In this document: one piece after another, positions 25,110 to 40,010 of the stretch | Layout of the letters: each line of letters starts with the position of its first letter | Numbering within the stretch: position 1 is the stretch's first letter | Source of the DNA: Defluviicoccus sp. | Lineage (GTDB): Bacteria; Pseudomonadota; Alphaproteobacteria; MPNO01 | NCBI GenBank assembly: GCA_028820505.1 | Contig: JAPPIT010000035.1 | Span: 1 to 43,981 of the forward strand | Length of the DNA stretch: 43,981 nt | Reading direction: 5' to 3' | Position numbers and translations under genes: made by a program | Notes under the pieces: model-generated | The model's database searches: none | The model's input: the letters and a program-made list of their open reading frames with translations, nothing else | What the model was told of the DNA's origin: nothing

Positions 25110-26234
25110 GTGTCGAGAGCCGGCCTTACCGACGCCCGAATCGGGGCGCTCGTCCCGCGCAAGACCTCATACGACCTCCGCGACGGAAAGCTCAGGGGCT
25201 TCGGTGTCCGGGTGACGCCCGCGGGCAGGAAGCGCTTCTTCGTCCACTGCCAGCACCGGGGAGAGCGCGTCTGGAAGATCGTCGGCGATTTCCCAGAGAT
25301 CGACGTGAAGGAAGCCCGCTCGCGCGCGACCGGGATGCTGGCCGCGATCAGGCGGGGCGAGCCCGCGCCGGCCCGGCCGGAGGAGGCGCTCTTCGAGGCC
25401 GTCGCCGAGGCCGTGTTCCGGAGGCACGAACGGGTCTGGAAGCCGGGCACGCTCCACGTGAACCGGGGCTATCTCGAAAGACAGATCCTGCCCCGCTTCG
25501 CTGGGCGGCCCGTCGCGGAGATCGACCGGCGCGATGTGCGCAGCTGGTTCGCCTCGCTGGCCGCGACCCCGGCCGCCGCCGACCGCTCCATGCCGATCCT
25601 TTCCGTCATCATGCGGGGCGCCGAGGCGATGGGTCTCCGACCTGAGGGCTCCAACCCTTGCCGGGGCGTAAGGCGTTACCGCCGCAAGGGGCGCGAGCGG
25701 TTCCTGTCGGACGCCGAAATCCGCGGGCTGTCCCGGGTACTGGCCGCGTGTGCCGATGAGAGTCCCCGACAGGTCGCGGCGATCCGTCTTCTTCTTCTCA
25801 CCGGATGCCGCAAGAGCGAGCTCCTGACACTCCGCTGGTCCGATTACCGCGAGGGACGCCTGTTCCTCCGCGACTCCAAGACGGGACCCCGAACCGTCTG
25901 GCTGTCGCAGCCGGCGCGGGACATTCTCGATCGTATCGAGCGGACCGGCGCATGGGTGTTTCCGTCGCCGCGGGCGGGACGGCCGCGCAGCACCGACTGG
26001 CTGGACAATTTCTGGTGGCGCATCCGGACCGAGGCGGGTCTCGACGACGTGCGCCTCCACGATCTCCGCCACACGCATGCGAGCGTCGCCCTGAGACTGG
26101 GCGAGACCGTGCTCGCCATCGGCCGGCTGCTCGGCCACGCCGACCCCGAGACCACCCTCAAATACACCCACGCCGCCGACGCGACGGTGATGCAGGCCGC
26201 AGAGACGGTCGGCGCCGTATTGGGGGCCCAATAA
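25110..26234 (+). CDS. tyrosine recombinase / phage-type integrase 1
   Basis: 374 residues. The N-terminal 85 residues (YDLRDGKLRGFGVRVTPAGR) are the arm-type DNA-binding domain (DUF4102-like), followed by a SAM-like core-binding domain at about 93-185. The catalytic residues are all present: R234 (TGCRKSELL), K257, H317-x-x-R320 (HDLRHTH), H343 (LLGHAD) and Y352 (LKYTH). The GTG at 25110 follows GGGAG. It carries out site-specific integration and excision. Its stop overlaps the start of a second recombinase (TAATG), so both are made from one mRNA. The two proteins are similar in layout but clearly diverged. Confidence 0.92.
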   Translation: MSRAGLTDARIGALVPRKTSYDLRDGKLRGFGVRVTPAGRKRFFVHCQHRGERVWKIVGDFPEIDVKEARSRATGMLAAIRRGEPAPARPEEALFEAVAEAVFRRHERVWKPGTLHVNRGYLERQILPRFAGRPVAEIDRRDVRSWFASLAATPAAADRSMPILSVIMRGAEAMGLRPEGSNPCRGVRRYRRKGRERFLSDAEIRGLSRVLAACADESPRQVAAIRLLLLTGCRKSELLTLRWSDYREGRLFLRDSKTGPRTVWLSQPARDILDRIERTGAWVFPSPRAGRPRSTDWLDNFWWRIRTEAGLDDVRLHDLRHTHASVALRLGETVLAIGRLLGHADPETTLKYTHAADATVMQAAETVGAVLGAQ

Positions 26235-27373
26235 TGCCGGCAAGGGAACGCAGGAAGCTGACGGATGCCACCGTCGCCCGTCTCCGACCCCGGGTGCGGG
26301 AATATACGGTGTGGGACAGCCGCGTACCCGCCTTGGGCGTCCGGGTGCGGCCGACAGGCGGGAAGGCCTGGGTCATGCTGGAGGAAACGGGCGGGCGATC
26401 GAGGCGCGTCTCGCTGGGGCCGATCTCGGTGATGAGCGTCGACGAGGCCCGCCGGGAATGTCTCGTCAGACCGACCGGCCTAGTGGCGGAACCCGCCGCG
26501 CCGGCGCGCCCGGTGCCGACGTTCCGCGAGTTCGTCGAAAGCGAGTGGAAGGAAGCGCACTTCGTCCGCTACAAGCCATCGACACGGAAAACCACGACCT
26601 GGCTCCTCGAAGCCAGGTTCCTGCCCGCCTTCGGCGAGAAGCCGCTCGACCGCATCGCCCCGGCCGAGATCAGGCGCTGGTTCGACGCCTTCAGCCGCAC
26701 CGCGCCGGGCAACGCCAACCGGGCCCTCGACGTCCTGCGCCAGATGATGAACTTCGCCGTCGCCAGGGGACACATCGAGACCAACCCGACGCGGGGCATC
26801 GAGCGGAACCGCCGGCCGCGGAAGACGCGGTTCCTGTCGCGCGAGGAGATTGCCCGGCTGCACGACGTGCTCGACGCCGAGGACAGGAAGGGCAACCGCC
26901 AGCATGCCGACATCATCCGCCTTCTGCTGCTGACCGGGTGCCGCAAGAACGAGATCCTCCGGCTGCGCTGGTCCGAGGTCGGGGACCACATGCTGGAGCT
27001 CGTCGACAGCAAAACGGGGCCGAGGAAAGTTCCCCTCAATGCCCGGGCGCGGCGTATCCTCGACAGGCAGCCGCGCGGCGAAGGCGCGTTCGTGTTTCCG
27101 TCGCCGCGCAATGCGAACCGCCCGCTGAGCGACAATCTCGACTTCTGGTTCCGGGTCCGAAGGGAGGCCGGCATCGAAGACGTGCGGCTTCACGACCTCC
27201 GTCATACGCACGCCAGCCACGCGGCCATGAGTGGCGTTCCCATCCCCGTCGTCTCCCGCCTGCTCGGCCATTCCAGCGTCCGCATGACGCTGCGATATGC
27301 CCATCTCGGTGACAGAGAGATCGAGGCCGCGGCGGAGAGGGTGGGGCAATCCATTGCCAGCATCATGGGGTAA
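26234..27373 (+). CDS. tyrosine recombinase / phage-type integrase 2
   Basis: 379 residues starting at the ATG overlapping the previous stop. Arm-binding domain at 1-75 (YTVWDSRVPALGVRVRPTGG), core-binding domain at about 95-190, catalytic domain 198-379 with R237 (TGCRKNEIL), K260, H320-x-x-R323, H346 (LLGHSS) and Y355 (LRYAH). All catalytic residues are intact. An open frame extends upstream of the ATG inside the first gene but has no recombinase-like sequence there. Tandem, coupled recombinases suggest that both are needed for transposition-like movement, or that they act on different sites. Confidence 0.92.
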   Translation: MPARERRKLTDATVARLRPRVREYTVWDSRVPALGVRVRPTGGKAWVMLEETGGRSRRVSLGPISVMSVDEARRECLVRPTGLVAEPAAPARPVPTFREFVESEWKEAHFVRYKPSTRKTTTWLLEARFLPAFGEKPLDRIAPAEIRRWFDAFSRTAPGNANRALDVLRQMMNFAVARGHIETNPTRGIERNRRPRKTRFLSREEIARLHDVLDAEDRKGNRQHADIIRLLLLTGCRKNEILRLRWSEVGDHMLELVDSKTGPRKVPLNARARRILDRQPRGEGAFVFPSPRNANRPLSDNLDFWFRVRREAGIEDVRLHDLRHTHASHAAMSGVPIPVVSRLLGHSSVRMTLRYAHLGDREIEAAAERVGQSIASIMG

Positions 27374-27672
27374 AGCACGCCATCGGCGCTATCAAGGTTT
27401 GCGCAGCCGAAAGAACCCGCCATTGGGTAGCCTTGGTTTCGTCATTCGACCGAACGCCAGGTTGTCCCCCCATGACAGAATGTGTTCCAATACCCCGCGT
27501 AGTCGCCCTACCCGCCGTCTCGTGAACATGAAACGCGAACGACTGAAAACATGGACGAGAAACCGAACGCACCAAGCGTTCGACCATTACTACTTCCGAG
27601 TGCTACGCACTCTCGCCTATCCATGCCGCGATCTGTCTGGTACCCACCGATTTCCGCAACTTGAGTTCTCGC
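27374..27672. other. non-coding stretch after the recombinases
   Basis: About 300 bases with no supportable gene. Base composition falls from clearly GC-rich to roughly balanced across it. It presumably carries the promoter of the DUF6932 gene, but no convincing -35/-10 pair was recognised. No tRNA, repeat array or clear terminator was seen. Confidence 0.6.
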
Positions 27673-28257
27673 ATGCCGATTCCCGACTTTACCCTTGACG
27701 GTGTCCTCCCGCCTTTCCTTGGGCCGCACGGGCCCGGCGGCCATCCAGCGGATATGTCCCCCTACGACGCCACCGCCCTGGAAGTAGTCACCCGCTTCGG
27801 AACTACCACGCCTCGCAACACCATCCTTCGCGGTTGGCTCGATCACCGTGCTGGCCTACGCGCCGCTGGCTTTCTGGATGGTTTCCAATGGCTAAACGGC
27901 AGCTTCGTAGAAGACAAGCAACCACGGGACCTTGATGTGGTTGCTTTCCTCTATCGTCCAACCGGAATCCTAGATGCGGTGTCGCTTCAGGCCCTCATGA
28001 ACTCCAACCCCCATTTGTTTCTCCGACAGAACGTTCGCGCTAAGTATCAACTTGATTTCATTTCCGTTGATTTGAATGGCACTGCCGAATTCCTTGTGCA
28101 AATGTCCCGGTATTATATGGGCTTATTCTCTCATCGTCGCAACGATCAACTATGGAAGGGGATGTTGCAGGTTCGTCTTGACGATCCCATTGGTGACCAA
28201 GCGGCAGTAGCAGCGCTGGCCGCGAGTTCGATGCCATCCGGAGGAGCCACGATATGA
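27673..28257 (+). CDS. DUF6932 family, nucleotidyltransferase-like protein
   Basis: 194 residues. The start MPIPDFTLDGVLPPFLG is characteristic of DUF6932. WLNGSFVEDKQPRDLDVVAF (residues 73-92) resembles a nucleotidyltransferase active site: G76-S77 followed by D86 and D88. A third acidic residue may be in YQLDFISVDL. The activity is unproven; related folds add nucleotides to RNA, proteins or small molecules and occur in toxins and anti-phage effectors. The ATG at 27673 is preferred over a TTG at 27661 because family members begin at this point. It overlaps the next gene by ATGA, indicating a two-gene unit. Codon use is more AT-rich than the recombinases. Confidence 0.75.
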   Translation: MPIPDFTLDGVLPPFLGPHGPGGHPADMSPYDATALEVVTRFGTTTPRNTILRGWLDHRAGLRAAGFLDGFQWLNGSFVEDKQPRDLDVVAFLYRPTGILDAVSLQALMNSNPHLFLRQNVRAKYQLDFISVDLNGTAEFLVQMSRYYMGLFSHRRNDQLWKGMLQVRLDDPIGDQAAVAALAASSMPSGGATI

Positions 28258-29204
28258 CGAGCCAAAGAAAGCTGGCGCTCGACCTTCTCCATGCCGATCT
28301 CACAGCTGTTGACGATCTAATTGCTCGGCTGACCGATGAAGACGTAATGGCACGCGTCGGTTTAGAAGATCGTCGTGAAGAAATAAAAGCTCTCATACTG
28401 AATGCGGAAAAAACGCTGATAGACGAAACCGCATCTGCAACTTTGTTTTTTGGTGGGAAGCCGGTGTCAGGGATACACGGCATAGAAAGTAAATTTGCTG
28501 CTTCCGCTGTAGGCACGTTTCAAGACCTTGTTGCCATGATACTGGCACATAAAGCCGGTACACTGTCTGAACGCGGTGCCGTAGCCCATAGAGAGTCATC
28601 AACGCTGTACATTACTGATGTGGCGCGAGGCTCCGTCGGATTTGTTCTCGAGGAAGTTCGGCCTCAGAAGAATTTGACTGACACTCCATTGAGCGATGCG
28701 GTTACTGAGGCAACGCAATTGCTTGCGGCATTCACTGCGACAAACGAGCATGAATTTCACGACCGCCTTGATTCCGTGGAACAGCGCGTCGTTGTTAGCG
28801 CTGGAAAGTTCTTCCAACTGATGCGCCGTAACGGCGCGACGCTCCGCCTCGTGACCAGCAAGTCGGATCACACCTACGGTGTAGAAGCTGTCGCTCGGGG
28901 CGCCGCCAGAGCAAGATCTACAACGACGGATTCGGAGGACCGAATTGTTATTGGCCGGCTTGGCGGCGTGCTCCCTGATACACGGCGGTTCGAGTTCAGA
29001 TGCGAAGAAGAAGAGCTGGGAACACTTTCTGGAAGGGTAGCACGAACACTCGGTACCAACGATCTAGACTACTATAACCGTGAACTACTTAACACCCGTG
29101 TACAGGCAAGAATGACCGTAACGTACATTTATCGCAATGAGGAGCTCCTGCGTGAGACCTATACTCTAATTGAATTGACGCCCGTAGCCGAGGATCACAC
29201 GTAA
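28254..29204 (+). CDS. unrecognised protein coupled to the DUF6932 gene
   Basis: 316 residues; no family recognised. The first third is strongly helical and acidic (DLLHADLTAVDDLIARLTDEDV, EEIKALILNAEKTLIDET). A central block SSTLYITDVARGSVGFVLEEV looks like a conserved beta-rich core and is followed by DATQLLAAF-type helices. The C-terminal part (GRLGGVLPDTRRFEFRCEE, LSGRVARTLGTNDLDYYNRELLNTRVQARMTVTYIYRNE) looks like a small beta-barrel or ligand-binding domain. No membrane segments or signal peptide. The start overlaps the DUF6932 stop, so the two proteins probably act together, as effector and regulator or as a complex. Convergent with the ubiquitin-like operon, 10 bases apart. Confidence 0.7.
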   Translation: MTSQRKLALDLLHADLTAVDDLIARLTDEDVMARVGLEDRREEIKALILNAEKTLIDETASATLFFGGKPVSGIHGIESKFAASAVGTFQDLVAMILAHKAGTLSERGAVAHRESSTLYITDVARGSVGFVLEEVRPQKNLTDTPLSDAVTEATQLLAAFTATNEHEFHDRLDSVEQRVVVSAGKFFQLMRRNGATLRLVTSKSDHTYGVEAVARGAARARSTTTDSEDRIVIGRLGGVLPDTRRFEFRCEEEELGTLSGRVARTLGTNDLDYYNRELLNTRVQARMTVTYIYRNEELLRETYTLIELTPVAEDHT

Positions 29205-29214
29205 GACCGTTTAG

Positions 29215-29550
29215 CTATCTTGCGCACCATATAACCCGGCCACTTTTTAGCCAGAAATGCGACCTGCAACCAGTCGTCCGCCATATGGAGGGCGTCAGAC
29301 TCGGATGCCCGCGGCGATCTACCGATAGTGTCCAGCGAGGACAAACATCACGCGCGAGGGGTAGTTCGATTATGTCGCCGCACCCGCAGGGACACAATAG
29401 ACCGATGCTCCAGTCAGAGCCACCATCACGTGTCACTATAATCCGTCGCCGGGCAATTGAGACCGGAAGCTCGTCATCTTCAATCCGCTTCAGGGCTCGT
29501 CGAGGTGAAAGAAATTCCTTGGCGTTTTTCCACCACCTAGTCCAGTTCAC
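29215..29550 (-). CDS. DUF6527 family protein of the ubiquitin-like operon
   Basis: 111 residues. After a basic N-terminal helix, the protein shows LLCPCGCGDIIELPL (C53, C55, C57), C70, then PSLTPSIW, GCRSHFWLKSGRVIWC (C95, S97, H98, C109). This is the DUF6527 pattern, a family that travels with bacterial multi-ubiquitin/E1/JAB genes. The cysteines could bind zinc; the conserved S-H-F near the end could be catalytic. A protease/deconjugase or an E3-like adaptor role is possible, and I cannot decide between them. The GTG at 29550 overlaps the stop of the E1 gene (GTGA), so it is the third gene of a coupled operon. Confidence 0.75.
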   Translation of the reverse strand: MNWTRWWKNAKEFLSPRRALKRIEDDELPVSIARRRIIVTRDGGSDWSIGLLCPCGCGDIIELPLARDVCPRWTLSVDRRGHPSLTPSIWRTTGCRSHFWLKSGRVIWCAR

Positions 29551-30947
29551 GCAACGGTCTCCGTTGTCGTTTCACCTAATGCGGGCATACCTAGAAGCGG
29601 CTCGCGACTCCCTCGACCCAGCAGGGGATTATTTCGTTTTTCGAAGCTATCTTCATCGTAGAAGTCCTCTTCCGCGGCAGCTAGGCTGAATGTGGTTCGG
29701 GCATACCGGCGATTGGGGTCCAGCCGGAACGGATAACGCCGCAGGATGAACTCGTTCATACACGCCGATGCGGCTCTCATGTTGAGCGAGATTACGGCGG
29801 GCGCTTCTTCGACGACACCCCTGATATATCCATCCTCCACTTCTTGCGCGTGCGCTTCGGGCGCTGCTCGTCGCAGATATTCGGCCCGAAGTGTTTCCGG
29901 AGTGTAGACGTTCCGGTCACGCAAGGTCGCTCCTCCAGGCTGCACGTAGTCTATTCTTCCCACAGCGTCCGCGATTGCCACCGTGCCATCCTTCCGCCGG
30001 ACCGGGATCGCCACGCCGACATCGAATAATGGCAGAAGAAATGCCGAGGCGATCAGATCTGCGAAATATCGACCCTCCAGACTGTCGACACAGCAAAACA
30101 GGACGTCGCCCTGGCTGGCAGCCAGCACGGCTTCCCGCGTGTTGATTGATGCCACGATCAGAACCGCACAGCCTTTTCCACGATATGTCGCGATGGCACG
30201 AGCGAGCACATTGGTCTTGTACCGGCGTGCCACCGCATCGGCTCTCGTTGCATTCAGAATTCGGTTAAGGTTCTTCTTCTTCACCTTGTCGAAATCAATC
30301 GGGATCACGCGCCCAAACCCGAGTCTGGCCGCCTGCTCCGCCTGAATGGAACCGGTGCCGGAAGCGCCGATCACCACGGCCGTCAACCGTCCCAACTCCG
30401 CAGTCATCGCACTTGTGAAGGCAATCGGCCGATCACCCGGCCCGTCCGGCGACGCCGCTTCCTCCCACCACAACGAGAGTTCGTCGCCCGCGCAAGCAAC
30501 CAGATCGATTGGCGTACATCTCATGTCGGAATCGTAGATGCGCGCCCGCACAGCGCCATCAGGCGTCATGATCGCGGAGCCATGCAAGTCTCCGTAGGCC
30601 TGGAACAGAGAACTCACCGCAATCAGATCGCTCGCGTCGTCGTCATCGGAAAAGAGGAAGGAGCCGCCAGGATGCGAATGCAGCAGAATGACGTTCAGCC
30701 CCTCAAGCTCGCCCTGCTCGACCGCTTCCTCAAGGTACCTGCCGGGCCATACGATCCGATCGGGCCGGCGACTTGCACAGGCGCCATGGGGAACAAGGAT
30801 TACGTCCCGTACCAGTAGCCGCAATCGAGGGCCAGGGGTACGGGTGCACAAGAGGATCGCTGCTGCTTCAAGCCCATCCCCCGGAAACAGATGCTCGCGA
30901 AGCTTGGCATGGGTCGTACCGGCCAAGGCGAGAGTAGTGTTCTTCAT
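29547..30947 (-). CDS. JAMM (JAB) peptidase - E1-like activating enzyme fusion
   Basis: 466 residues from the ATG at 30947, which has a near-ideal AAGGAGGTGGGAGA site and overlaps the upstream stop (ATGA). Residues 10-155 form a JAMM metalloprotease with all zinc/catalytic residues: E27, H90-S-H92-P, S100 and D103 (HSHPGGSFLFSDDD). Residues 180-410 are a ThiF/E1 adenylation domain: GASGTGS (194-200), IDFD (D218, D220), KKKNLNR (N226, R229), K244, and CVDSLEGR (D288, R293). So one chain should both process or remove the ubiquitin-like protein and adenylate it. In a canonical E1 a catalytic cysteine receives the modifier; candidates exist (C285, C286 among others) but none is clearly in position. 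The C-terminal 50 residues are low-complexity and acidic. Confidence 0.9.
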   Translation of the reverse strand: MKNTTLALAGTTHAKLREHLFPGDGLEAAAILLCTRTPGPRLRLLVRDVILVPHGACASRRPDRIVWPGRYLEEAVEQGELEGLNVILLHSHPGGSFLFSDDDDASDLIAVSSLFQAYGDLHGSAIMTPDGAVRARIYDSDMRCTPIDLVACAGDELSLWWEEAASPDGPGDRPIAFTSAMTAELGRLTAVVIGASGTGSIQAEQAARLGFGRVIPIDFDKVKKKNLNRILNATRADAVARRYKTNVLARAIATYRGKGCAVLIVASINTREAVLAASQGDVLFCCVDSLEGRYFADLIASAFLLPLFDVGVAIPVRRKDGTVAIADAVGRIDYVQPGGATLRDRNVYTPETLRAEYLRRAAPEAHAQEVEDGYIRGVVEEAPAVISLNMRAASACMNEFILRRYPFRLDPNRRYARTTFSLAAAEEDFYDEDSFEKRNNPLLGRGSREPLLGMPALGETTTETVA

Positions 30948-32056
30948 TCTCCCACCTCCTTTGTCAGAGCAGCGTCGACGAGACCAAGATGCGTTACCAC
31001 GTTGTCGGTCTCCGGATCCCACGGTGCCAACTGCCCGCGGTGGCGCGACCATCCGTGGAACTCATTACCGAGAATAGTGCCGCGCAACTGCGTCCTGGGG
31101 ATTGCTCTCCCTGACGCCAAGGCGAGCTCCGGATACGCGTAGAACCCGTACAGGGCTGCGCCCGGGTACATGTCCGGAATCTCGAGAGCCAGCGTGGTTT
31201 CTCGAGCCGTGTAACCGGGCGGCAGCGGAAACCGATAGATGACCAGCCAACGCCGCTTGCCGTCGATGATCGTCTCCCACCTGAGCTTGAGGCGATCGAG
31301 ATACTCGGTGTCGCCGTCAAGCAAAGCAAAGTCGCGGCGAGGCGCCTGAGGCGCCTCCCCGTTGTCGACGTTCTTGGGCATCAATCGAAGCTTCTCGATC
31401 CCCGGCGTCTTGAGGTCGACGATGTAGTCGAGATCCACCTCGTGCTTGGGCTGGTCCCTGACTTTCAGGAAGACATGCCAGTCCTTGCTGACATCGAAAC
31501 CGGCCTGTTCCATGGCAGCGCTCACGGCGACCGTGGGGGTCGAAACATCGATCACCACGCCATGCACATTCAGCTTCCAGGAAGCCTTCCCCGTCACGAA
31601 CGCTTCGATGCCTTCCATGTCCAGATCCACCAGATCATGGTCTCCGATCATCAGATCCGGCTCATCCCGCCGCTGCAGGTAGACGACCGAGCCTTCCGGC
31701 ACCTTCGCGAGCTTCCGGAGAACTCCGCCACTGACGATTCGGCAGGGCCATTCGAATCGCTGCCCATCCACCGTCAGCAGGTAAATGCGGTCAGACGCGA
31801 CGATCACGAACCGGCCATCACATTTGGTCAGATCGATCACCTCTTCGGGGCGAATGGACTCAAGTGCCCCGTCCGGGAGCACCTGCAAAACGATTGCCCC
31901 GTCCCCCGGCTTGAAACCGGCGCTGCGGGCAAGCTGCGCTCCCGTTGGCGTAGGGTCCTCGACCTTGACGTCCCGGAAGGAAAGCGTCTGGTCGGCGACA
32001 TGGATCAGGTTGTGGTCTTTTCCGCGGCTCCCCGCGGTCTCGGCAGTTCCAGGCAT
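30944..32056 (-). CDS. triple ubiquitin-like repeat fused to a cysteine-free E2-like domain
   Basis: 370 residues. Three ubiquitin-like (multi-ubiquitin type) repeats are visible at about 15-85, 90-157 and 160-228. They share a beta-hairpin start and a closing (D/E)-x-(I/L)-V/I-D-L pattern, with GIE after the second and third copies. A linker (KNVDNGEAPQAP) leads to residues 240-370, which match the Prok-E2_E type: RRDFALLDGDTEYLDRL, FPLPPGYTARET, IPDMYPGAALYGFYAYP, GWSRHR (336-340) and PWDPETDNVVTHLGLVD. The only cysteines in the whole protein are C79 and C105, in Ubl repeats; the E2 domain has none, so a classical thioester E2 step is impossible. S337 of WSRH is a candidate acceptor. No diglycine tail is seen. 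ATG at 32056 with AAGGAG; an in-frame ATG at 32074 lacks one. First gene of the three-gene operon. Confidence 0.88.
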   Translation of the reverse strand: MPGTAETAGSRGKDHNLIHVADQTLSFRDVKVEDPTPTGAQLARSAGFKPGDGAIVLQVLPDGALESIRPEEVIDLTKCDGRFVIVASDRIYLLTVDGQRFEWPCRIVSGGVLRKLAKVPEGSVVYLQRRDEPDLMIGDHDLVDLDMEGIEAFVTGKASWKLNVHGVVIDVSTPTVAVSAAMEQAGFDVSKDWHVFLKVRDQPKHEVDLDYIVDLKTPGIEKLRLMPKNVDNGEAPQAPRRDFALLDGDTEYLDRLKLRWETIIDGKRRWLVIYRFPLPPGYTARETTLALEIPDMYPGAALYGFYAYPELALASGRAIPRTQLRGTILGNEFHGWSRHRGQLAPWDPETDNVVTHLGLVDAALTKEVGE

Positions 32057-32106
32057 CGGATCTCTCCTTCTCATGCCTGCCGGCACCATTACCGGCGCTG
32101 CCTATG

Positions 32107-32219: not shown

Positions 32220-32603
32220 ATGGCTGAGACTGACGATGACGCCACCGGCACGGCCGACAGACTAGGCCCCTATCTCAACAGCACCCGCCGCGGTCTGGCC
32301 CTGTCCCTGCGAGACGTGGAGGAAGCTACTGGACGGGAAGTCAGCAATGCCTATCTGAGCCAGCTCGAATCTGGGAAGATTCGAAAACCCTCGCCACACA
32401 TCCTGTATGCACTTTCCACGGCGCTCTCGGTTCCGTACGAGGACCTTATGGAACGCGCCGGCTATATCGCCCCGTCCCGTGACCGCACCGCTGCAAGCAA
32501 GCACGGACGGATTGCCACGTTCTCAATCGAGAACTTGACCGCGGATGAAGAGAAAGCACTGCTCGAACATCTCGCATACATCAGATGGCAGCAGAAGAAA
32601 TGA
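32220..32603 (+). CDS. XRE-family HTH transcriptional regulator
   Basis: 127 residues. Residues 17-80 form a Cro/CI-type helix-turn-helix (LNSTRRGLALSLRDVEEATG, VSNAYLSQLESGKIRKPSPHILYALSTALSV). The tail TADEEKALLEHLAYIRWQQKK may contact its partner. ATG at 32220 follows AGGGAGGAG. Its stop overlaps the metallopeptidase start (ATGA). This XRE plus ImmA/IrrE pairing is known from ImmR-ImmA of ICEBs1 and from many defence loci, where the peptidase removes the repressor after a stress cue. Here it is divergent from the ubiquitin-like operon, so it may control that operon or itself. Confidence 0.9.
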   Translation: MAETDDDATGTADRLGPYLNSTRRGLALSLRDVEEATGREVSNAYLSQLESGKIRKPSPHILYALSTALSVPYEDLMERAGYIAPSRDRTAASKHGRIATFSIENLTADEEKALLEHLAYIRWQQKK

Positions 32604-33517
32604 GCCAACTTCCCGACGATTCTTCCCTGACCCCTGCCCAGCTCGCCAAGGTGAAAGCAGAGGCTGAGCGCGCCTTGCGCGAGGCGGGGGTCATCGGCGT
32701 CCTGCCAACACCACTGGATGAAATCCTTACTGCCGCCCGTGTACAGGAAATTCACGAAGATGTGCTTAACGACAGCTTCCTCACCAAACTGCGCAAGAAA
32801 GCTGACAAAAAGCTAAAGCAAGCTCTATCCAAAGTCCTCGGAGTGTTTGACGCGGTCTCAAGCCTGATCTTCGTTGACCAACTGCTTGCTCCGGTAAAGA
32901 AGCGCTTTATCAGCCTGCATGAAGCTGCCCACGGCTTTCTTCCCTGGCAGCGCAGCATGTATCGAATTGTGGAAGATTGCGACAAGTCTCTGGACCCCGA
33001 GGCCGCGGACCTTTTTGACCGCGAAGCCAACGTATTCGCTTCTGAAGTCCTGTTTCAGAACGATACCTTTCACGATCTTGCGGTGGATAAGCCGTTTGAG
33101 ATCTGGACTCCAATTAGGCTTGCGAAGAAATTCGATGCTTCCCTGTACTCATCTATTCGTCAGTATGTCTCGAAAAGCGATCGCTGTTGCGTCGTTCTCG
33201 TTCTGAATCCTCCCCAGTTGTTGGAGCATTTCGGGTTCAGGGCTACTCTTCGCCGTGTTGTGTCGTCCAGCAAATTTGCAACTGTGTTCGACAATAGCCG
33301 CTGGCCACAGACCTATACGCCCGATGATCGGATCGGCCGTATGGTCCCGCTTGGCAAACGGCGATCATCCGGAAAGCAGGAGTTGTCCTTAACAGACGCT
33401 AACGGTGACCGCCATGATTGTATCGCCGAATCCTTCACTCAAAAGCATCAAGTCTTTATCCTTATTCATGTAACCGAGACACTTGGCCGGCCCAAAATAA
33501 TCTTGCCCGCCAGTTAA
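32600..33517 (+). CDS. ImmA/IrrE-family metallopeptidase
   Basis: 305 residues from the ATG at 32600, which overlaps the XRE stop; an in-frame ATG lies 15 bases earlier. The zinc site is SLHEAAHGFLP (HExxH at 107-111), with the second family motif DREANVFASEVLF (141-152) supplying the third ligand. The N-terminal 100 residues contain a helical region rich in lysine (KLRKKADKKLKQALSKVLG). The C-terminal 120 residues are probably a sensor domain. It probably cleaves the XRE regulator. Base use is AT-richer than the flanking chromosome. Convergent with the HNH gene, 6 bases apart. Confidence 0.88.
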   Translation: MSQLPDDSSLTPAQLAKVKAEAERALREAGVIGVLPTPLDEILTAARVQEIHEDVLNDSFLTKLRKKADKKLKQALSKVLGVFDAVSSLIFVDQLLAPVKKRFISLHEAAHGFLPWQRSMYRIVEDCDKSLDPEAADLFDREANVFASEVLFQNDTFHDLAVDKPFEIWTPIRLAKKFDASLYSSIRQYVSKSDRCCVVLVLNPPQLLEHFGFRATLRRVVSSSKFATVFDNSRWPQTYTPDDRIGRMVPLGKRRSSGKQELSLTDANGDRHDCIAESFTQKHQVFILIHVTETLGRPKIILPAS

Positions 33518-33523
33518 GCCATA

Positions 33524-34375
33524 TCAGGCTTCGGCCATAAGGACGTGAAGCTCACTGACTGTCAGGGGAGGGTTTCTTCTATGCACCACTGCATGGCAAT
33601 TCGGGCAGAGCGGGACAAGATCCCGAGCAGGGTCGATTATATATCCCGCACCAAGTTCCGATACTGGTGTGACGTGGTGAACCTCAACATATCCGGAAGC
33701 TAATGATCCGTAACGCATACCCATTTCCAGGCCACAACCCTTGCAGGCCGTTCCATGAATTGCTATCGCGGCCGCTCGATTTCTTTTGTCCCTTTCGTAT
33801 CGATTTGCCTTGACCGAGACAACGGAACCTTCTGGATAGCCAACTACTTCTGATTCCGTATTTTCAACGACTTCTTCAGTTGGAAGAATAGCAACAACGC
33901 CAGCCGAGAACCGGACAGTCCACTGGCAGACAATTTGGGCATCGGGTTCGCCTTCGTCAGTACCCAGTTCCAGTTGGCCCTTGTTCATCGAAAACAGCAG
34001 GCGATTCCAGTTCTGCGACCACACGTTTTCGTCATCAAACTCAAATCGTACGCCATTTATTTCAAGATCGATCTGCGCCCCCAGGCGACGACTGTCGGCC
34101 AGCACTGCAAGAAATGCCGACCGGCCCTCTGCTTCTGCGTTACCCATGTCCTCCAGAAGGGAGCCGGCAAACTTGCCGGGTTCAAACTCGATCCGAAGAC
34201 GCCTCCACTGGAGTGTCGTCCGAATACCAAAGGTATGGTCCGAAAGCAGACCCCGAGGGCGAAGCATATACCAGCGCTGGCCGTCGGCATCCACGCCGGT
34301 TTCAGCTTCGAACTCGAGCCCGGTTTGCCCCGTGATCGCCTTTGCCAGATGCTCGGGCTCAAGCGACGTCCGCAT
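33524..34375 (-). CDS. HNH endonuclease of the paraMORC restriction operon
   Basis: 283 residues. The C-terminal domain is a zinc-stabilised HNH nuclease: CKGCG (C211, C214), VEVHHVTPVSEL (H233, H234), DLVPLCPNCHAVVHR (C257, C260, H261, H265), as in McrA-type enzymes. The N-terminal 150 residues (LRPRGLLSDHTFGIRTTLQWRRLRIEFEP) are an unrecognised, probably DNA- or protein-binding, beta-rich domain; a basic hinge (RYERDKRNRAAA) joins the two. ATG at 34375 behind GGAGG, overlapping the GHKL gene by 17 nt. It is the last gene and the clearest nuclease of the operon, so it is the likely cutting subunit. Confidence 0.88.
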   Translation of the reverse strand: MRTSLEPEHLAKAITGQTGLEFEAETGVDADGQRWYMLRPRGLLSDHTFGIRTTLQWRRLRIEFEPGKFAGSLLEDMGNAEAEGRSAFLAVLADSRRLGAQIDLEINGVRFEFDDENVWSQNWNRLLFSMNKGQLELGTDEGEPDAQIVCQWTVRFSAGVVAILPTEEVVENTESEVVGYPEGSVVSVKANRYERDKRNRAAAIAIHGTACKGCGLEMGMRYGSLASGYVEVHHVTPVSELGAGYIIDPARDLVPLCPNCHAVVHRRNPPLTVSELHVLMAEA

Positions 34376-35966
34376 CCTCGTCCGCCTCCGGTTCTGGCAG
34401 GCCTTCCACCAGCTTTCGCAGAATACGCGTCACCTCGTACCGCATGTCCTTGAACCCCTCAGCCGTCTTGTCGGTGGTCGCGCTGAGCTCCGCCACACAA
34501 AGCGCCCAAAGCAGCGAGTCCATTCCCTGCACAGTCACGCTGCTGTTCAGGTTGGGCACGTAGACCTTATGGTAGTAGGGATGCTGCGTATTGATGCGCA
34601 CCGCCTTGTGCCGTTCGATCACTGCCGGCTCAAATAGCAGTCCGTCCTCCACATCCTCGGCCGGCTGGACGAACACCTCACCTGGCCTCGCGGCCGAGCT
34701 GATCTTCAACTTCATCTTGAACAGGCCGTGTTCGTTCTTGACGGTCACCTCGCCTGTATTGGGATCACTTATGTTGACTTCGGCCCCTCCAACCTCCGCT
34801 TCCTTGTTCCGGATCGAGTTGTTCGAGGCCTCGTGGGCGTTCTTTGCCTTGTCGGCAATATCTTTCTTCCGTCCCTGGCGGTATCGACGATTGGCCTCGC
34901 GGCGCGGTGCTGTCAGAAACTGGTCCTTCAACCAGTTCCAGAGTTCATCGTTGAGGATGATCTGTGATTTCTTGATATCGAGATGGAACGCGTCGTCCAG
35001 TTTGTGATCGAAGGAGAATTCGATCCTCAACAGGGTGCTGTGCGGTTCCTTCTGGAACATGTTCAGCCAATCGGCTTCATGAATCAGCCGCTCTTCCCGG
35101 TAAATGTAAAGACCCTGCATGTTCGACGAGAGCCTCGCCGCTTTCGCCAGCTTGTCATCCGGGAATTCTTCGCGGCGCGGCAGGATGTATGCCCGAACAC
35201 GAAACTTGGCCCCCGTGCCTTCCACCTCGACCGAGTCTTCGGCTACCAGTTCTGACAGCGCTTTCTGAAACGGATCCCACGGGGCAACCCGTTCTCCGTT
35301 CACCCTGATTTCGACGTTCCGTGCACGGCTGTCCGACTTGTCCAGGAATCGCTGATAGGTCATCGCGATGTGCTCGCTGAGTTCCCGACAGCGCTTCTTC
35401 AGCGCCCTGCGTGCATAACTGCCTGCAGGATCCTGATAATCCCTCAGCAATCGGTCGACCTTGTTCCAGAGAACAACGGTACCCGCCGAATCCGGCGCCA
35501 ACTCGTTGAGATGTTCGAGCGCCTCTTCGTCCGGTTCATCCGACATTTGCAGGAGCCACTGCTCGCTCTCCACCACATGGTCAAGATCCCATGTCGCCAT
35601 CAGTGCCGGCGCATCGCCCGACGCGCGCGATATCAACGACAGGCGACGGCAGAAGGCCGTTGAGGCCGTCTTCAGGCCAAGCCCGTATTTGCCCAAGCTT
35701 GCCGGATCCGGCCGTTTGGGCGATCCGTACTGCATCGCTTGAACGAGTCCGCTCCTGTCCATGCCACAACCGTTGTCGGCGATAGACAGCTGAACATCCC
35801 CCCGAAAATCCTGTTCGACCCGCACACTTACCTTCTTCGCCCCTGCGGCAATCGAGTTGTCCACAAGGTCGGCAACGGCCGTTTCAAAGCTGTAGCCGGT
35901 GTCGCGCAGTCCTTCGATCGTCCGCCCGGGGTTGGGGATGGACTCGATACTTTCCATTCCGGACAT
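34359..35966 (-). CDS. GHKL ATPase of the prokaryotic MORC (paraMORC) type
   Basis: 535 residues. The N-terminal Bergerat fold is complete: N-box TAVADLVDNSIAA (D33, D36, N37), G1 IADNGCGMD (64-70) and G2 LGKYGLGLKTAS (91-102). A second, S5-like domain probably spans about 200-340 (IRVNGERVAPWDPF, SSNMQGLYIYREERLI). The rest contains a basic, coiled segment (EANRRYRQGRKKDIADKAKNAHEASN) and ends with an acidic tail. Such ATPases close around DNA on binding ATP; the bacterial relatives were described by Iyer and colleagues as MutL/MORC homologues in restriction systems with helicases and nucleases, which fits this operon. The ATG at 35966 follows AAGGAAGAGC. Confidence 0.88.
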   Translation of the reverse strand: MSGMESIESIPNPGRTIEGLRDTGYSFETAVADLVDNSIAAGAKKVSVRVEQDFRGDVQLSIADNGCGMDRSGLVQAMQYGSPKRPDPASLGKYGLGLKTASTAFCRRLSLISRASGDAPALMATWDLDHVVESEQWLLQMSDEPDEEALEHLNELAPDSAGTVVLWNKVDRLLRDYQDPAGSYARRALKKRCRELSEHIAMTYQRFLDKSDSRARNVEIRVNGERVAPWDPFQKALSELVAEDSVEVEGTGAKFRVRAYILPRREEFPDDKLAKAARLSSNMQGLYIYREERLIHEADWLNMFQKEPHSTLLRIEFSFDHKLDDAFHLDIKKSQIILNDELWNWLKDQFLTAPRREANRRYRQGRKKDIADKAKNAHEASNNSIRNKEAEVGGAEVNISDPNTGEVTVKNEHGLFKMKLKISSAARPGEVFVQPAEDVEDGLLFEPAVIERHKAVRINTQHPYYHKVYVPNLNSSVTVQGMDSLLWALCVAELSATTDKTAEGFKDMRYEVTRILRKLVEGLPEPEADEDADVA

Positions 35967-35976
35967 GCTCTTCCTT

Positions 35977-36405
35977 TCAGATATTGACCACTTTCCACCC
36001 GGCGCCCAATCGGATAACAGTTTCCCCTGCCTCGTTCATTGACACGGGCTGCTCATTCGAGCGTCGGTAAGAAATGGAGTAGTTGCCACCGCTATCCCGA
36101 TGCATCACGACTTCATCTCCGGTCGCCAGCCCCGACTCCCGGATATACCGCGTCATACGGGTAAGCCTGTATTCGTTGCGTGTGCCGCCAAAAAAGCCGT
36201 TGTTGTAGTAAATGAAAGCAAATTCCCAAAACCGCCCTGTAGCATCCTCGAAATGCAGATGAGCGCGAGGGTTGAGCTTAGATGCATCGAGCACGGGAAA
36301 AAACGAAAGAATACGTTTCTTCTTCGGTATCAGCAGCCCTGCCTGGTGACCACCGGTCTCTCCCGAGTCATTCGCACTCAGAACTTTGGAAATCGTCAGT
36401 TCCAT
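35977..36405 (-). CDS. free-standing EcoRII N-terminal-type DNA-recognition domain
   Basis: 142 residues, all one domain. SANDSGETGGHQAGLLIPKKK, FEDATGRFWEFAFIYYNNG, GGTRNEYRLTRMTRYIRESG and GDEVVMHRD reproduce the DNA-binding pseudobarrel (B3-like) N-terminal domain of EcoRII, which reads CCWGG. The catalytic C-terminal domain of EcoRII is entirely absent, so this is a recognition factor without its own nuclease. It probably supplies sequence specificity to the HNH nuclease, paraMORC and SNF2 proteins. ATG at 36405 overlaps the SNF2 stop (TGATG); a TTG directly in front is also possible. It ends 10 bases before the GHKL gene. Confidence 0.85.
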   Translation of the reverse strand: MELTISKVLSANDSGETGGHQAGLLIPKKKRILSFFPVLDASKLNPRAHLHFEDATGRFWEFAFIYYNNGFFGGTRNEYRLTRMTRYIRESGLATGDEVVMHRDSGGNYSISYRRSNEQPVSMNEAGETVIRLGAGWKVVNI

Positions 36406-38318
36406 CAAGTACCAACCGATCTTGTAGCCGATGGTGAGCGCTCCAGCGCTGCCATAATGTCCTGGTAGTCCTCTTCCTTGCCCTCCACCCCGATCACCGC
36501 TGATTCGGCAATGTCCCGTTTGCGCCGCAACCGCTCATCCATGACTTCTTCAACTGTTCCCGCGCAAATCAGTCGCCGCACAGTCACGGGACGTTCCTGT
36601 CCTCGTCTATGTGCCCGTGCCGATGCCTGGTCTTCAAGTGCGGGGTTCCATTCAGGATTGTAGTGAATGACATGGTTCGCAGCTGTTATGTTCAATCCCG
36701 AGCCCCCAGCCCGGGGATTCAGGACCAGCACCGCGGATCCGCCATATCCGGAAAACATGTCAATGAGGGGCTGCCGGTCCTCAGTGTCCAGACGCCCGTC
36801 AAGCGTTGCAGACATCGCGCCAAGTTGACTTGAAATCATGTTTGCAATCAGGTCTGCCATCTTGGTGTACGAAGTGAACACAAGCACCTTCTCGCCAAGG
36901 GCGAATATTTCCTCCAGCAATTCCTTAAGGCGCTCAAACTTAGAGAATGTTTCCGCTTGAAAACTCCACTCGTTACCCAAGACATGGGGATGGGCACAAA
37001 ACTGTCTGAGTTTTCCCAAGGAAACCAGTGTCGCCGCCGCCCCGTATCCCGCTAGAACCTTTTCGCGCACTTCATCGTATGCGCAAGCCTCAGCCTCGTT
37101 CAACTCCAGAATCTCCGGGATGTCGATACGCTCCGGAAGATCACGGGCGACCTCCGACACACGTCGGCGCAGCATCAAGGGCGTCACGAGCGGTTCCAGC
37201 CTGGCCGCTGCTTCGGCGTCCTCCGCATACCGTGCCTCAAAGCTCTTCAGGTCACCTAGGTATCCGGGCAACGCAAAATCCATGATGGACCAGAGATCCC
37301 GCAATCGATTCTCGACCGGAGTCCCGGTAACCGCCAATCCCGCCTTGCGCCCAATCTGCTTGACCGACTTCGTGCGAAGGGCATCCGGATTCCGGATGTT
37401 CTGTGCCTCGTCGAGCACAACCACATTCCAGTCGACCATCTTCAGCAATGACAGATCCCGAACCGCTGTGTCATAGGAGGAGACAACGACATCGAAGCCC
37501 TGCAGTTCAACCGGCCTCCCGGTTCGCTCGCTCCCGTGGTGCTTGAGCGACCGGAAGTCCGGACAGAACCTCGCGATTTCGCGCATCCAGTTTTCCAGCA
37601 GCGACCCTGGCGCCAGCACCAGCGCCCCGCCTGAACCAAGCTTCCCACCGGGATCGCGCAACGCGCAGATCACCTGCAAAGTCTTGCCCAGCCCCATTTC
37701 ATCGGCCAGCAACCCGCCCAGTTCCTCCCGCATGAGGAAACGGAGCCATTGCCAGCCATCGCGCTGGTAGGGGTAGAGACTCGCCGTTATCCCTTCCGGA
37801 CCCTGATCGGTTCGGGTCCCAAAGATCAACTTTGTCAGCGCATCGTCCGGAAGCCGATCGATAACCGGTGCACCTTCGACCGCCGCCCTCTTCAAAGCCA
37901 GAATTCCCGCGAGACTTCGCGACCGTGCCGCATCCGGGTCATATCCGCTCTGCTCCAGCAACTCCGCAAGGTCGCCGGCACTCCCGGGTACGCCGGGATA
38001 CCAAACTCGCTCATGCACAACGTGCCCGCGAGCCGCCGCTTCCCTCGACACCGGGAAAGTCCTGCCCTTCTGGGTGCGGGCCTCGAACGCAACAACGGGC
38101 CAGTCTGAATCCGCGCCGCCCACAATTACCGCGGCCAGTTCGACCGGATACCGGGAAAACCGAAGCATGTCCGCGTCGCCGCACTTGCCAGCCGGCAGAT
38201 CCGGCCAGGTTGGACCCTGTTCAATAACGGACGCGTAAACCTGGTTCGCGTCTGCAGCAATCCGCGCTTCGCCATCGGCTATCTCCAGCACGTCCCCGTT
38301 CAGCACCCAGCGTTTCAT
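36405..38318 (-). CDS. SNF2-family DNA translocase/helicase
   Basis: 637 residues. After an N-terminal domain of about 190 residues, the SF2 motor shows all motifs: YPYQRDGWQWL (Q), LADEMGLGKTLQ (I), VVVSSYDT, VVLDEAQNIRN (II), VTGTPVENRLRDLW (III), KVLVFTSYTKMADL (IV), LNPRAGGSGLNITAANHVIHY (V) and DQASARAHRRGQERPV (VI). It should translocate on double-stranded DNA, probably to carry or activate the nuclease or find target sites. The ATG at 38318 overlaps the Vsr stop (ATGA); an open frame upstream overlaps vsr and is ignored. Confidence 0.92.
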   Translation of the reverse strand: MKRWVLNGDVLEIADGEARIAADANQVYASVIEQGPTWPDLPAGKCGDADMLRFSRYPVELAAVIVGGADSDWPVVAFEARTQKGRTFPVSREAAARGHVVHERVWYPGVPGSAGDLAELLEQSGYDPDAARSRSLAGILALKRAAVEGAPVIDRLPDDALTKLIFGTRTDQGPEGITASLYPYQRDGWQWLRFLMREELGGLLADEMGLGKTLQVICALRDPGGKLGSGGALVLAPGSLLENWMREIARFCPDFRSLKHHGSERTGRPVELQGFDVVVSSYDTAVRDLSLLKMVDWNVVVLDEAQNIRNPDALRTKSVKQIGRKAGLAVTGTPVENRLRDLWSIMDFALPGYLGDLKSFEARYAEDAEAAARLEPLVTPLMLRRRVSEVARDLPERIDIPEILELNEAEACAYDEVREKVLAGYGAAATLVSLGKLRQFCAHPHVLGNEWSFQAETFSKFERLKELLEEIFALGEKVLVFTSYTKMADLIANMISSQLGAMSATLDGRLDTEDRQPLIDMFSGYGGSAVLVLNPRAGGSGLNITAANHVIHYNPEWNPALEDQASARAHRRGQERPVTVRRLICAGTVEEVMDERLRRKRDIAESAVIGVEGKEEDYQDIMAALERSPSATRSVGT

Positions 38319-38782
38319 GCCGGAGGCGCTCCCGTGATTTCCGCTTCGGCCTCGCTTCCCTTGATCCATTGCTCAGCCCGACCGAGGACGGATTCGAAGT
38401 CAATCCTCCATTTCCCCTTGAGAGCGCATTCCCATATGACAAGCCTTCTCCAACCCTGTTCTTCCAGAGCGGTCCGCACTTCCCGGTCTCGCTCTACGTT
38501 CCGCGTGATTTTCGTCCTCCAGAATTCGGGCCGCGTCGACGGAAACTTGAAAAGGTGGCACTCGTGACCGTGCCAGAAACAGCCATGGACGTAGATCGCT
38601 GCACGATACCTGGGCAAAACGAGATCCGGCCTGCCAGGCACCTCTGCTGAGTGCAGACGGAATCTGAATCCCATCCGGTGCAGGCCCCGCCTTACCATCA
38701 TCTCCGGCTTGGTGTTCTTGCTTCGGATGCCGGACATCATCCGGCTGCGCGTTTCCGGATCGACTACATCAGGCACGAACAA
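38315..38782 (-). CDS. vsr: very short patch repair endonuclease
   Basis: 155 residues, typical of Vsr. TRSRMMSGIRSKNTKPEMMVRRGLH is the N-terminal signature. RPDLVLPRYRAAIYVHGCFW-HGHEC contains the catalytic Asp (D53) and His residues (H71, H73) and a zinc-site Cys (C75); VIWECAL carries the second zinc cysteine. Vsr nicks 5' of the T in T:G mismatches left by deamination of 5-methylcytosine in CCWGG-type sites, so its presence supports a C5 methylase with that specificity. The start is TTG (38782) or GTG (38776), both inside the methyltransferase 3' end; the overlap and GAGAAGG favour the TTG. Confidence 0.93.
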   Translation of the reverse strand: MFVPDVVDPETRSRMMSGIRSKNTKPEMMVRRGLHRMGFRFRLHSAEVPGRPDLVLPRYRAAIYVHGCFWHGHECHLFKFPSTRPEFWRTKITRNVERDREVRTALEEQGWRRLVIWECALKGKWRIDFESVLGRAEQWIKGSEAEAEITGAPPA

Positions 38783-40010
38783 GAACCTTCTCGTCGTCCC
38801 GACTCTCGGCCACCGCTTCTGTGAGCCAGGGACGCATGTGCCGGGCGATCATCTCCACGACAGGAACGACAACGGCGTTTCCGAACTGCTTGTATGCCTG
38901 AGTATCCGACACGGGGATCTTGAACCGCTTGTCGTCCGTGACGTCGAATCCCATCAGTCGGGCGCATTCCCGCGGAGTGAGCCGCCGGGGATTTCTCCTG
39001 CCACCCTGTCTGACCAGAATTTCCGATCCATCCTTGAAATAGCGTGCAGACAATGTGCGCGCGACGTCGTCCTTCCCGACCAGGCCATATCCAAACCCAT
39101 TGCCCCTTGCACGGTGCTTCCGGGCATACCCTTGCAAGTAGCGCCATAGATGATCGGACAGCGTGTACTTGCTGGACACGTTTGCGGTCGGCCCCCGTGT
39201 GAAGGGCTCCTCGGGCGCTTCCGACCCGTCTTCCGGATGTAGGATTGAACCAAGTCTCGGCCCGGCAGCCGAATCCGGCACCGCGACATCGTCAAAGTCG
39301 AATCCGTTGGGCTCCCTGAAACCCGCAATGAAAATTCGTTCCCGATGCTGCGGAACGAACCCCTTCGCATCAATTACGCGACAGTCGACCTGGTAGCCGA
39401 GCTCATTTTCCAGCGCACTCCGGATCACCCGGAAGGTACGGCCCCGGTCATGGCTGACCAGATTCTTGACGTTCTCCAGCAAGAACGCCTTGGGCCGGTG
39501 ATGTTCAAGGATTCGAGCAACGTCAAAGAACAGGGTGCCTTGGGCATCACAGTGGAATCCATGCCGCTGCCCAAGCGCATTCTTCTTTGACACTCCTGCA
39601 AGCGAGAATGGCTGACAGGGAAACCCCGCCAGCATGACATCGTGGGTTGGTATCGCGTTTGCAGGGATCGCCCGGATATCCCCGGCAATTTCATGGTCGC
39701 AGACGTTGTTCGCCAGATAGGTCTTTACGCAGTACTTGTCCCACTCAGAGGTAAAGACGCATTTTCCTCCAATCGCCTCGAAGCCCCGCCGAAGACCCCC
39801 GATTCCTGCGAACAGATCAATGAAGCTGAACCTGCCTTCCGATCGTGGCCGGTCTGCCGCTGCTCGACGTAGGTACAGCACCGCGGCTCGCCGGGGCGTC
39901 CCTTCGCCGGTTTCCCACCGATAGATCGTTCGTTCACAGTAGCCGAGCGCCTGCGTTGCCTCCGCAATGGTCAGACCCGCAGCCTTCCTGAGCCTAGAGA
40001 ACTCGGTCAT
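38769..40010 (-). CDS. dcm: DNA (cytosine-5) methyltransferase, EcoRII/Dcm type
   Basis: 413 residues. Residues 4-45 are an XRE-like helix-turn-helix (LRKAAGLTIAEATQALGYCERTIYRWETG). The methylase motifs follow: I FIDLFAGIGGLRRGF, IV AGFPCQPFS (catalytic C132), VI LLENVKN, VIII QHRERIFIAGF, IX RRLTPRECARLMGF and X AYKQFGNAVVVPV. The target-recognition part SSKYTLSDHLWRYLQGYARK, HRARGNGFGYG and ARTLSARYFKDGSEIL is strikingly like M.EcoRII/Dcm, so the predicted site is CCWGG with the inner C methylated. M.EcoRII is known to repress its own gene through its N-terminal extension; the HTH here suggests the same. First gene of the operon. Confidence 0.93.
   Translation of the reverse strand: MTEFSRLRKAAGLTIAEATQALGYCERTIYRWETGEGTPRRAAVLYLRRAAADRPRSEGRFSFIDLFAGIGGLRRGFEAIGGKCVFTSEWDKYCVKTYLANNVCDHEIAGDIRAIPANAIPTHDVMLAGFPCQPFSLAGVSKKNALGQRHGFHCDAQGTLFFDVARILEHHRPKAFLLENVKNLVSHDRGRTFRVIRSALENELGYQVDCRVIDAKGFVPQHRERIFIAGFREPNGFDFDDVAVPDSAAGPRLGSILHPEDGSEAPEEPFTRGPTANVSSKYTLSDHLWRYLQGYARKHRARGNGFGYGLVGKDDVARTLSARYFKDGSEILVRQGGRRNPRRLTPRECARLMGFDVTDDKRFKIPVSDTQAYKQFGNAVVVPVVEMIARHMRPWLTEAVAESRDDEKVLVRA

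Follow-up and report, generated by a model that had tools for sequence, protein, structure and literature searches.

How could an E2-like domain without a single cysteine serve in a ubiquitin-type pathway? The question is raised by a protein encoded in the window, the whole stretch of 43,981 nucleotides analysed here (contig JAPPIT010000035.1 of a Defluviicoccus sp. assembly, GCA_028820505.1). By all the sequence features checked, the operon is assigned to the Bub (bacterial ubiquitination-like) type, with the arrangement BubAB-BubCD-DUF6527. Its BubAB-type gene (30944..32056, minus strand) fuses three ubiquitin-like (Ubl) repeats to the E2-like domain, as recognised by Pfam (PF14452 and PF14462), by matches in the PDB and by a Shine-Dalgarno sequence. 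The full ORF comprises 381 amino acids (30944-32089, minus strand; open up to 32089) and matches Multi_ubiq (PF14452, 5.1e-27) and, over ORF residues 256-377, Prok-E2_E (PF14462, 2.4e-27); in the PDB, the protein matches the multi-Ubl entry 9d59 (2.4e-71) and BubB (9eav_D/9eae_C, 1.8e-28). Translation most likely begins with the ATG codon 32054-32056, which is preceded by the Shine-Dalgarno sequence AAGGAGAG and gives a protein of 370 residues. Residues are numbered from this methionine (32056 = residue 1), so that Ser337 and His339 of the preliminary description correspond to S348 and H350 of the 381-residue ORF.

The start of the next gene overlaps the E2 stop codon (ATGA). This BubCD-type gene (29547..30947, minus strand) joins a Prok-JAB domain (PF14464) to a ThiF/E1 adenylation domain (PF00899), and its product matches Citrobacter BubCD (9ea4, 2.8e-147). 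The third gene (29215..29550, minus strand) has a GTG start that overlaps the E1 stop (GTGA) and encodes a DUF6527 protein (PF20137, 3.1e-22), a predicted metal-binding partner. A DUF6527 gene follows E1 in all 77 related loci with room for it, and the E1-E2-Ubl operon is intact in every related locus inspected.

Bub operons are expected to encode between one and three Ubl repeats in tandem, closed by a conserved glycine, and the N-terminal part of the BubAB-type protein has three such repeats. Repeat 1 lies approximately at 31787..32008 (minus strand), as placed by alignment with 9d59_A, and repeat 2 approximately at 31586..31780 (minus strand), the best stretch for PF14452 (ORF residues 104-168). 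Repeat 3 (31358..31585, minus strand) ends in VDNG; residues 168-244 of the query align here with 9ea8_B (Citrobacter BubA 155-229). The junction between the last glycine of this repeat and the first glutamate of the E2 (31355..31360, minus strand) is a probable processing site, as homologue junctions and construct boundaries indicate. In nearly all fused homologues the junction reads (N/D)G followed by E or D, in the window protein NG followed by E; the separate BubA of Nostoc terminates in TTTEG, its last residue being the junction glycine; and in the deposited constructs BubA 155-229 ends, and BubB from residue 230 begins, at this same bond. Cleavage of the precursor after the junction glycine is therefore likely. 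The separate BubA proteins of Abditibacteriota and of a planctomycete plasmid extend a few residues beyond TEG, and the stand-alone BubA proteins L019 and L125 carry short tails past the TEG glycine (CGLGQELC and SCG), which would have to be removed before BubA activation.

Behind the three repeats follows the Prok-E2_E/UBC-fold domain (30944..31357, minus strand; residues 241-370), identified by PF14462, by its model and by its match in the PDB. It contains no cysteine, and the only two cysteines of the protein (in DLTKCDG and WPCRI) both belong to the Ubl part. The preliminary description had read the protein in just this way and had concluded that thioester transfer cannot occur in the domain; the PF14462 match and the cysteine count bear it out on all these points. 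Of what defines a UBC-fold E2, the fold is present and the catalytic thioester cysteine is absent. Taken by itself, a Bub E2 with zero cysteines is unremarkable and not improbable: these domains hold 1.27 cysteines on average, and none occurs in 24 of 98, where about 28 would be expected by chance. A cysteine supplied from elsewhere in the E2 was rejected, since the family alignment has no conserved cysteine column (32/99 in the best one) and only six sequences have a cysteine within 10 residues of the motif serine. What does lie beyond chance, judging from the alignment, is that the canonical catalytic cysteine is missing family-wide while the serine of a WSR motif is invariant. The HPN motif that precedes the catalytic position is likewise absent from Bub E2s, which show the conserved pattern (F/Y)(Q/N/H)(R/G)WSR instead.

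In the window protein the motif is WSRH (31040-31051, minus strand), with the codon of Ser337, the proposed nucleophile, at 31046..31048 and that of His339 at 31040..31042. Related loci were fetched from genome contigs by their E1, so that relatives were not picked by the motif under test, and in 80 of 80 such loci the adjacent E2 carries the motif serine. After the addition of plasmid and genome matches, the final set comprised 98 good E2s, nearly all of them obtained via E1 or by a search with the whole domain, with a median pairwise identity of 46% and a minimum of 17%. Across this set the serine is found 98 times, Trp336 97 times, Arg338 96 times and His339 91 times. In one clade the serine codon is AGY rather than TCN; the residue has been retained through a change that is impossible in one base step. 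Even two very distant Bub E2s (L005/L107 and L006/L108) keep serine and histidine in the form WFSWH, with arginine replaced by tryptophan; L107 (G111) and L108 (G384) represent very distant Bub-like operons in which these E2s stand alone. A sequence reading WNRY (L007) was excluded as a broken fragment that has no E1 and falls under the Pfam cut-off; L008, L009 and L106 were likewise under this cut-off. A further short E2-like fragment with WNRY (L109, 7137-7295, minus strand) lies within a different long ORF with no E1 nearby and is likely to be either a relic or a fortuitous match. Free replacement of the serine, which the preliminary description had named as evidence against its proposal, was looked for in the family alignment and not found.

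The histidine behaves differently. The preliminary description had suggested that Ser337, next to His339, could form an oxyester, and in favour of a dyad of the two performing the chemistry, histidine follows two residues after the serine in 91 of 98 E2s. However, in seven otherwise good operons it is replaced by tyrosine (L021, L023, L031), asparagine (L022, L025, L093) or serine (L089), and these include the closest relatives of the window protein, with WSRY in L021 and L023 and WSRN in L022. On the E1 tree the histidine has changed at least five times and the serine not once. We therefore reject the Ser-His dyad as highly improbable; the serine half of the suggestion stands, and the part given to histidine does not.

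The structural position of the serine was assessed with an AlphaFold2 model of the E2 domain (pLDDT 93.9; 83 sequences). Its best structural match is the Citrobacter BubB 9eae_C (Z 21.6, rmsd 1.3), a Bub E2 with 42-44% identity to that of the window, which has both the WSRH motif and the Gly/Glu junction in common with it. Further matches, at Z 7-8.4, are nearly all UBC E2s or UEVs; Cap2 appears in the Foldseek and VIA lists. In the model a beta-hairpin precedes the WSRH motif. A profile alignment of Bub E2s with four human E2s (of which UBE2D2 was checked against the PDB) yielded nothing beyond a weak match confined to the YP turn; for this reason the domain was re-predicted as a model ending right after WSRH, from which the residue equivalent to the serine could be read. 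The last histidine of this model aligns to residue 89 in UBE2N, 88 in UBE2L3, 95 in UBE2R1, 92 in UBE2G1, 89 in UBE2H, 95 in UBC9, 97 in UBE2S and 94 in UBE2K. The serine, two residues earlier, would accordingly fall on C87, C86, C93, C90, C87, C93, C95 and C92 of these proteins, if the last three residues are assumed to be gap-free, and on residue 110 in TSG101; these eight cysteines are the known catalytic ones. The superpositions have low Z values (3.5-4.6), and since E2s are homologous they amount to few independent measurements, so that the placement of the serine on the catalytic-cysteine position is a consistent result rather than many independent ones. The spacing from the serine to the following tryptophan is 9 in 70 of 98 Bub E2s, and the cysteine-to-tryptophan spacing of canonical E2s is 8-10. 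A model placing Ser337 far from the E2 catalytic site, the other outcome that would have spoken against the preliminary description, was sought and did not emerge.

A UBC fold devoid of cysteine could also be catalytically dead, as RWD and UEV domains are, and might bind the Ubl, the E1 or the target while the E1 hands the Ubl straight to lysines or another carrier serves. This non-catalytic alternative, which the preliminary description had also offered, equals the reading published by Iyer, Burroughs and Aravind in 2006, where the operon type in row 6e is described with an E2-like domain that lacks the conserved cysteine, resembles RWD and is probably inactive (PMC1779556). A 2024 review repeats the term 'inactive E2-like' (PMC11354881). 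Among the structural matches of our model, UEV domains such as TSG101 are also on a par in Z with active E2s. On the other hand, the residue at the cysteine position is serine in all 98 diverse E2s, although the flanking histidine, the following loop and most of the surface vary, and an inert scaffold would have no reason for retaining a serine there. Given the invariant serine, we consider a dead domain improbable and a weaker rival of the serine oxyester.

The E1 side offers a second conserved residue. Among 97 E1s, cysteine is conserved at C34 and C57, both within the JAB part, and at C286 of the adenylation core, and the crossover loop of these E1s has no conserved cysteine. Tyr374 (codon 29826..29828, minus strand) lies inside this otherwise variable loop and is invariant in 97 of 97. 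In chain A of the deposited E1-E2-Ubl complex 9eav this tyrosine is phenylalanine, whereas 9ea4 and 9ea5 have tyrosine, which indicates that the depositors judged the residue important. An E1 without a crossover-loop cysteine would use or need Tyr374. One way in which it might do so is an oxyester relay of two steps, in which the Ubl is first attached to E1 Tyr374 and then passed to Ser337; such a relay would be a variant within the Ser-oxyester reading. The invariance of Tyr374, the lack of a conserved cysteine in the crossover loop and the change from tyrosine to phenylalanine in 9eav all speak for such a relay, but the tyrosine might just as well act as a general base, or gate an attack that the E2 serine makes directly on the adenylate, and the profile alignment with MoeB, of low confidence in this region, puts Tyr374 not exactly on the catalytic cysteine. 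We regard the relay as a tentative possibility. An exact equivalence of Tyr374 with the MoeB catalytic cysteine was discarded, hhalign giving it no support past the adenylation core.

Our preferred interpretation, which we hold to be probable, is that the domain is the E2 of the Bub pathway, that serine has taken the place of the cysteine by which UBC-fold enzymes catalyse transfer, and that the Ubl is carried as a serine oxyester. The pathway would begin with a cut of the BubAB precursor after Gly233 (G244 of the ORF), as construct boundaries and stand-alone homologues suggest, which would free the C-terminal glycine of the Ubl as well as the E2. The JAB-E1 protein, whose ThiF motifs are intact, would then adenylate this glycine, and the Ubl would pass to Ser337 as an oxyester, either directly from the adenylate or via the E1 crossover loop with Tyr374. 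A target amine may finally take the Ubl from Ser337, and the removal or processing of Ubls is probably the task of the JAB domain. The analysis shows the fold, the position of the serine, the invariance of the serine and of the E1 tyrosine, the dispensability of the histidine and the operon; the covalent intermediate, the order of the steps and the substrate are inferred. Against a role specific to the serine, Trp336, Trp346 and Asp351 vary no more than the serine itself does, and Arg338 hardly more, so that folding or the binding of E1 could be what the motif is kept for; moreover, with no HPN-like oxyanion motif and a dispensable histidine, no evident base would be available to the serine inside the E2, and the residue mutated in 9eav is the E1 tyrosine and not the E2 serine, which is wild type there. 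Ye et al. 2026, on the Bub mechanism, is said to report oxyester intermediates. A full ubiquitin-type relay free of any thioester, from adenylate over E1 Tyr and E2 Ser oxyesters to the target, is a more speculative proposal that we think rather doubtful, and part or all of it may already be reported by Ye et al. 2026.

Several known systems can be set beside the window operon. The Citrobacter Bub operon (PDB 9EA4/9EA5/9EA8/9EAE/9EAV; Ye et al.) likewise combines a fused three-Ubl and E2 protein, a JAB-E1 and DUF6527; its BubB has two non-conserved cysteines (GYCWET, DGCLQK), whereas the window E2 has none. The polyUbl operon type 6e has an identical gene set, including the cysteine-free E2-like domain and the metal-binding partner, but the account of type 6e calls the domain inactive and does not bring the serine into its discussion (PMC1779556). 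Canonical UBC E2s (UBE2N, UBE2L3, UBE2R1 and others) share the fold and a W-x-P after the catalytic position with the window E2, which differs from them in its serine at the cysteine position, the absence of any cysteine and of HPN, and the extra beta-hairpin before the motif. Bil (BilABCD) and CBASS Cap2 are likewise bacterial conjugation systems of the Ubl/E1/E2 type with a JAB partner, but they use a catalytic cysteine (Cys417 in BilD; PMC11354881), and in Bub neither the E1 crossover loop nor the E2 has a conserved one. The inactive UEV and RWD domains (TSG101, MMS2) share with the window E2 a UBC fold without the catalytic cysteine; unlike them, the window E2 has one invariant residue type at the cysteine position and sits in a full E1-E2-Ubl operon.

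The surroundings of the operon hold further genes. A divergent CapH+CapP-like regulator pair (32220..33517, plus strand) lies 5' of the operon and consists of an HTH gene (32220-32603, PF01381) and a gene for an M78/ImmA-like peptidase (32585-33517, PF06114). CapH+CapP or CapW adjoin 219 of 544 Bub operons (PMC13373217). A different, winged-HTH pair accompanies the relative on a Citrobacter braakii plasmid. Next to the Bub operon, a minus-strand cluster (33524-40010) encodes a Dcm C5-methylase, a Vsr endonuclease, an SNF2 helicase, an EcoRII-N domain protein, a GHKL ATPase and an HNH protein and resembles a restriction-modification-like or DISARM-like set. Convergent with the DUF6527 gene, 27661-29204 (plus strand) encodes a DUF6932 protein (PADLOC PDC-M63A, 2.4e-8) and a 316-residue protein without a family; on a Bradyrhizobium plasmid (L011), two similar hypothetical genes come after the Bub operon. 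Two tandem tyrosine integrases (25110-26234 and about 26246-27373, plus strand) suggest a mobile element bearing defence-like genes; the window contains no tRNA genes. PADLOC has no model covering the Bub E2 or Ubl, no Bub E2 was found in annotated phages, and one complete Bub locus is present on a viral contig (L101).

The Bub pathway and its structures are already published, its mechanism probably so, and the absence of the cysteine has been in print since 2006; new here are the tests of serine invariance, of histidine replacement, of the position of the serine and of the invariance of E1 Tyr374. They single out two exact residues, Ser337 of the E2 and Tyr374 of the E1, and the comparison shows that the neighbouring histidine is not needed. 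If the serine carries the Ubl, a domain that has been called inactive from 2006 to the 2024 review would be an enzyme with a changed nucleophile, and the E2 fold would not be tied to sulphur chemistry.
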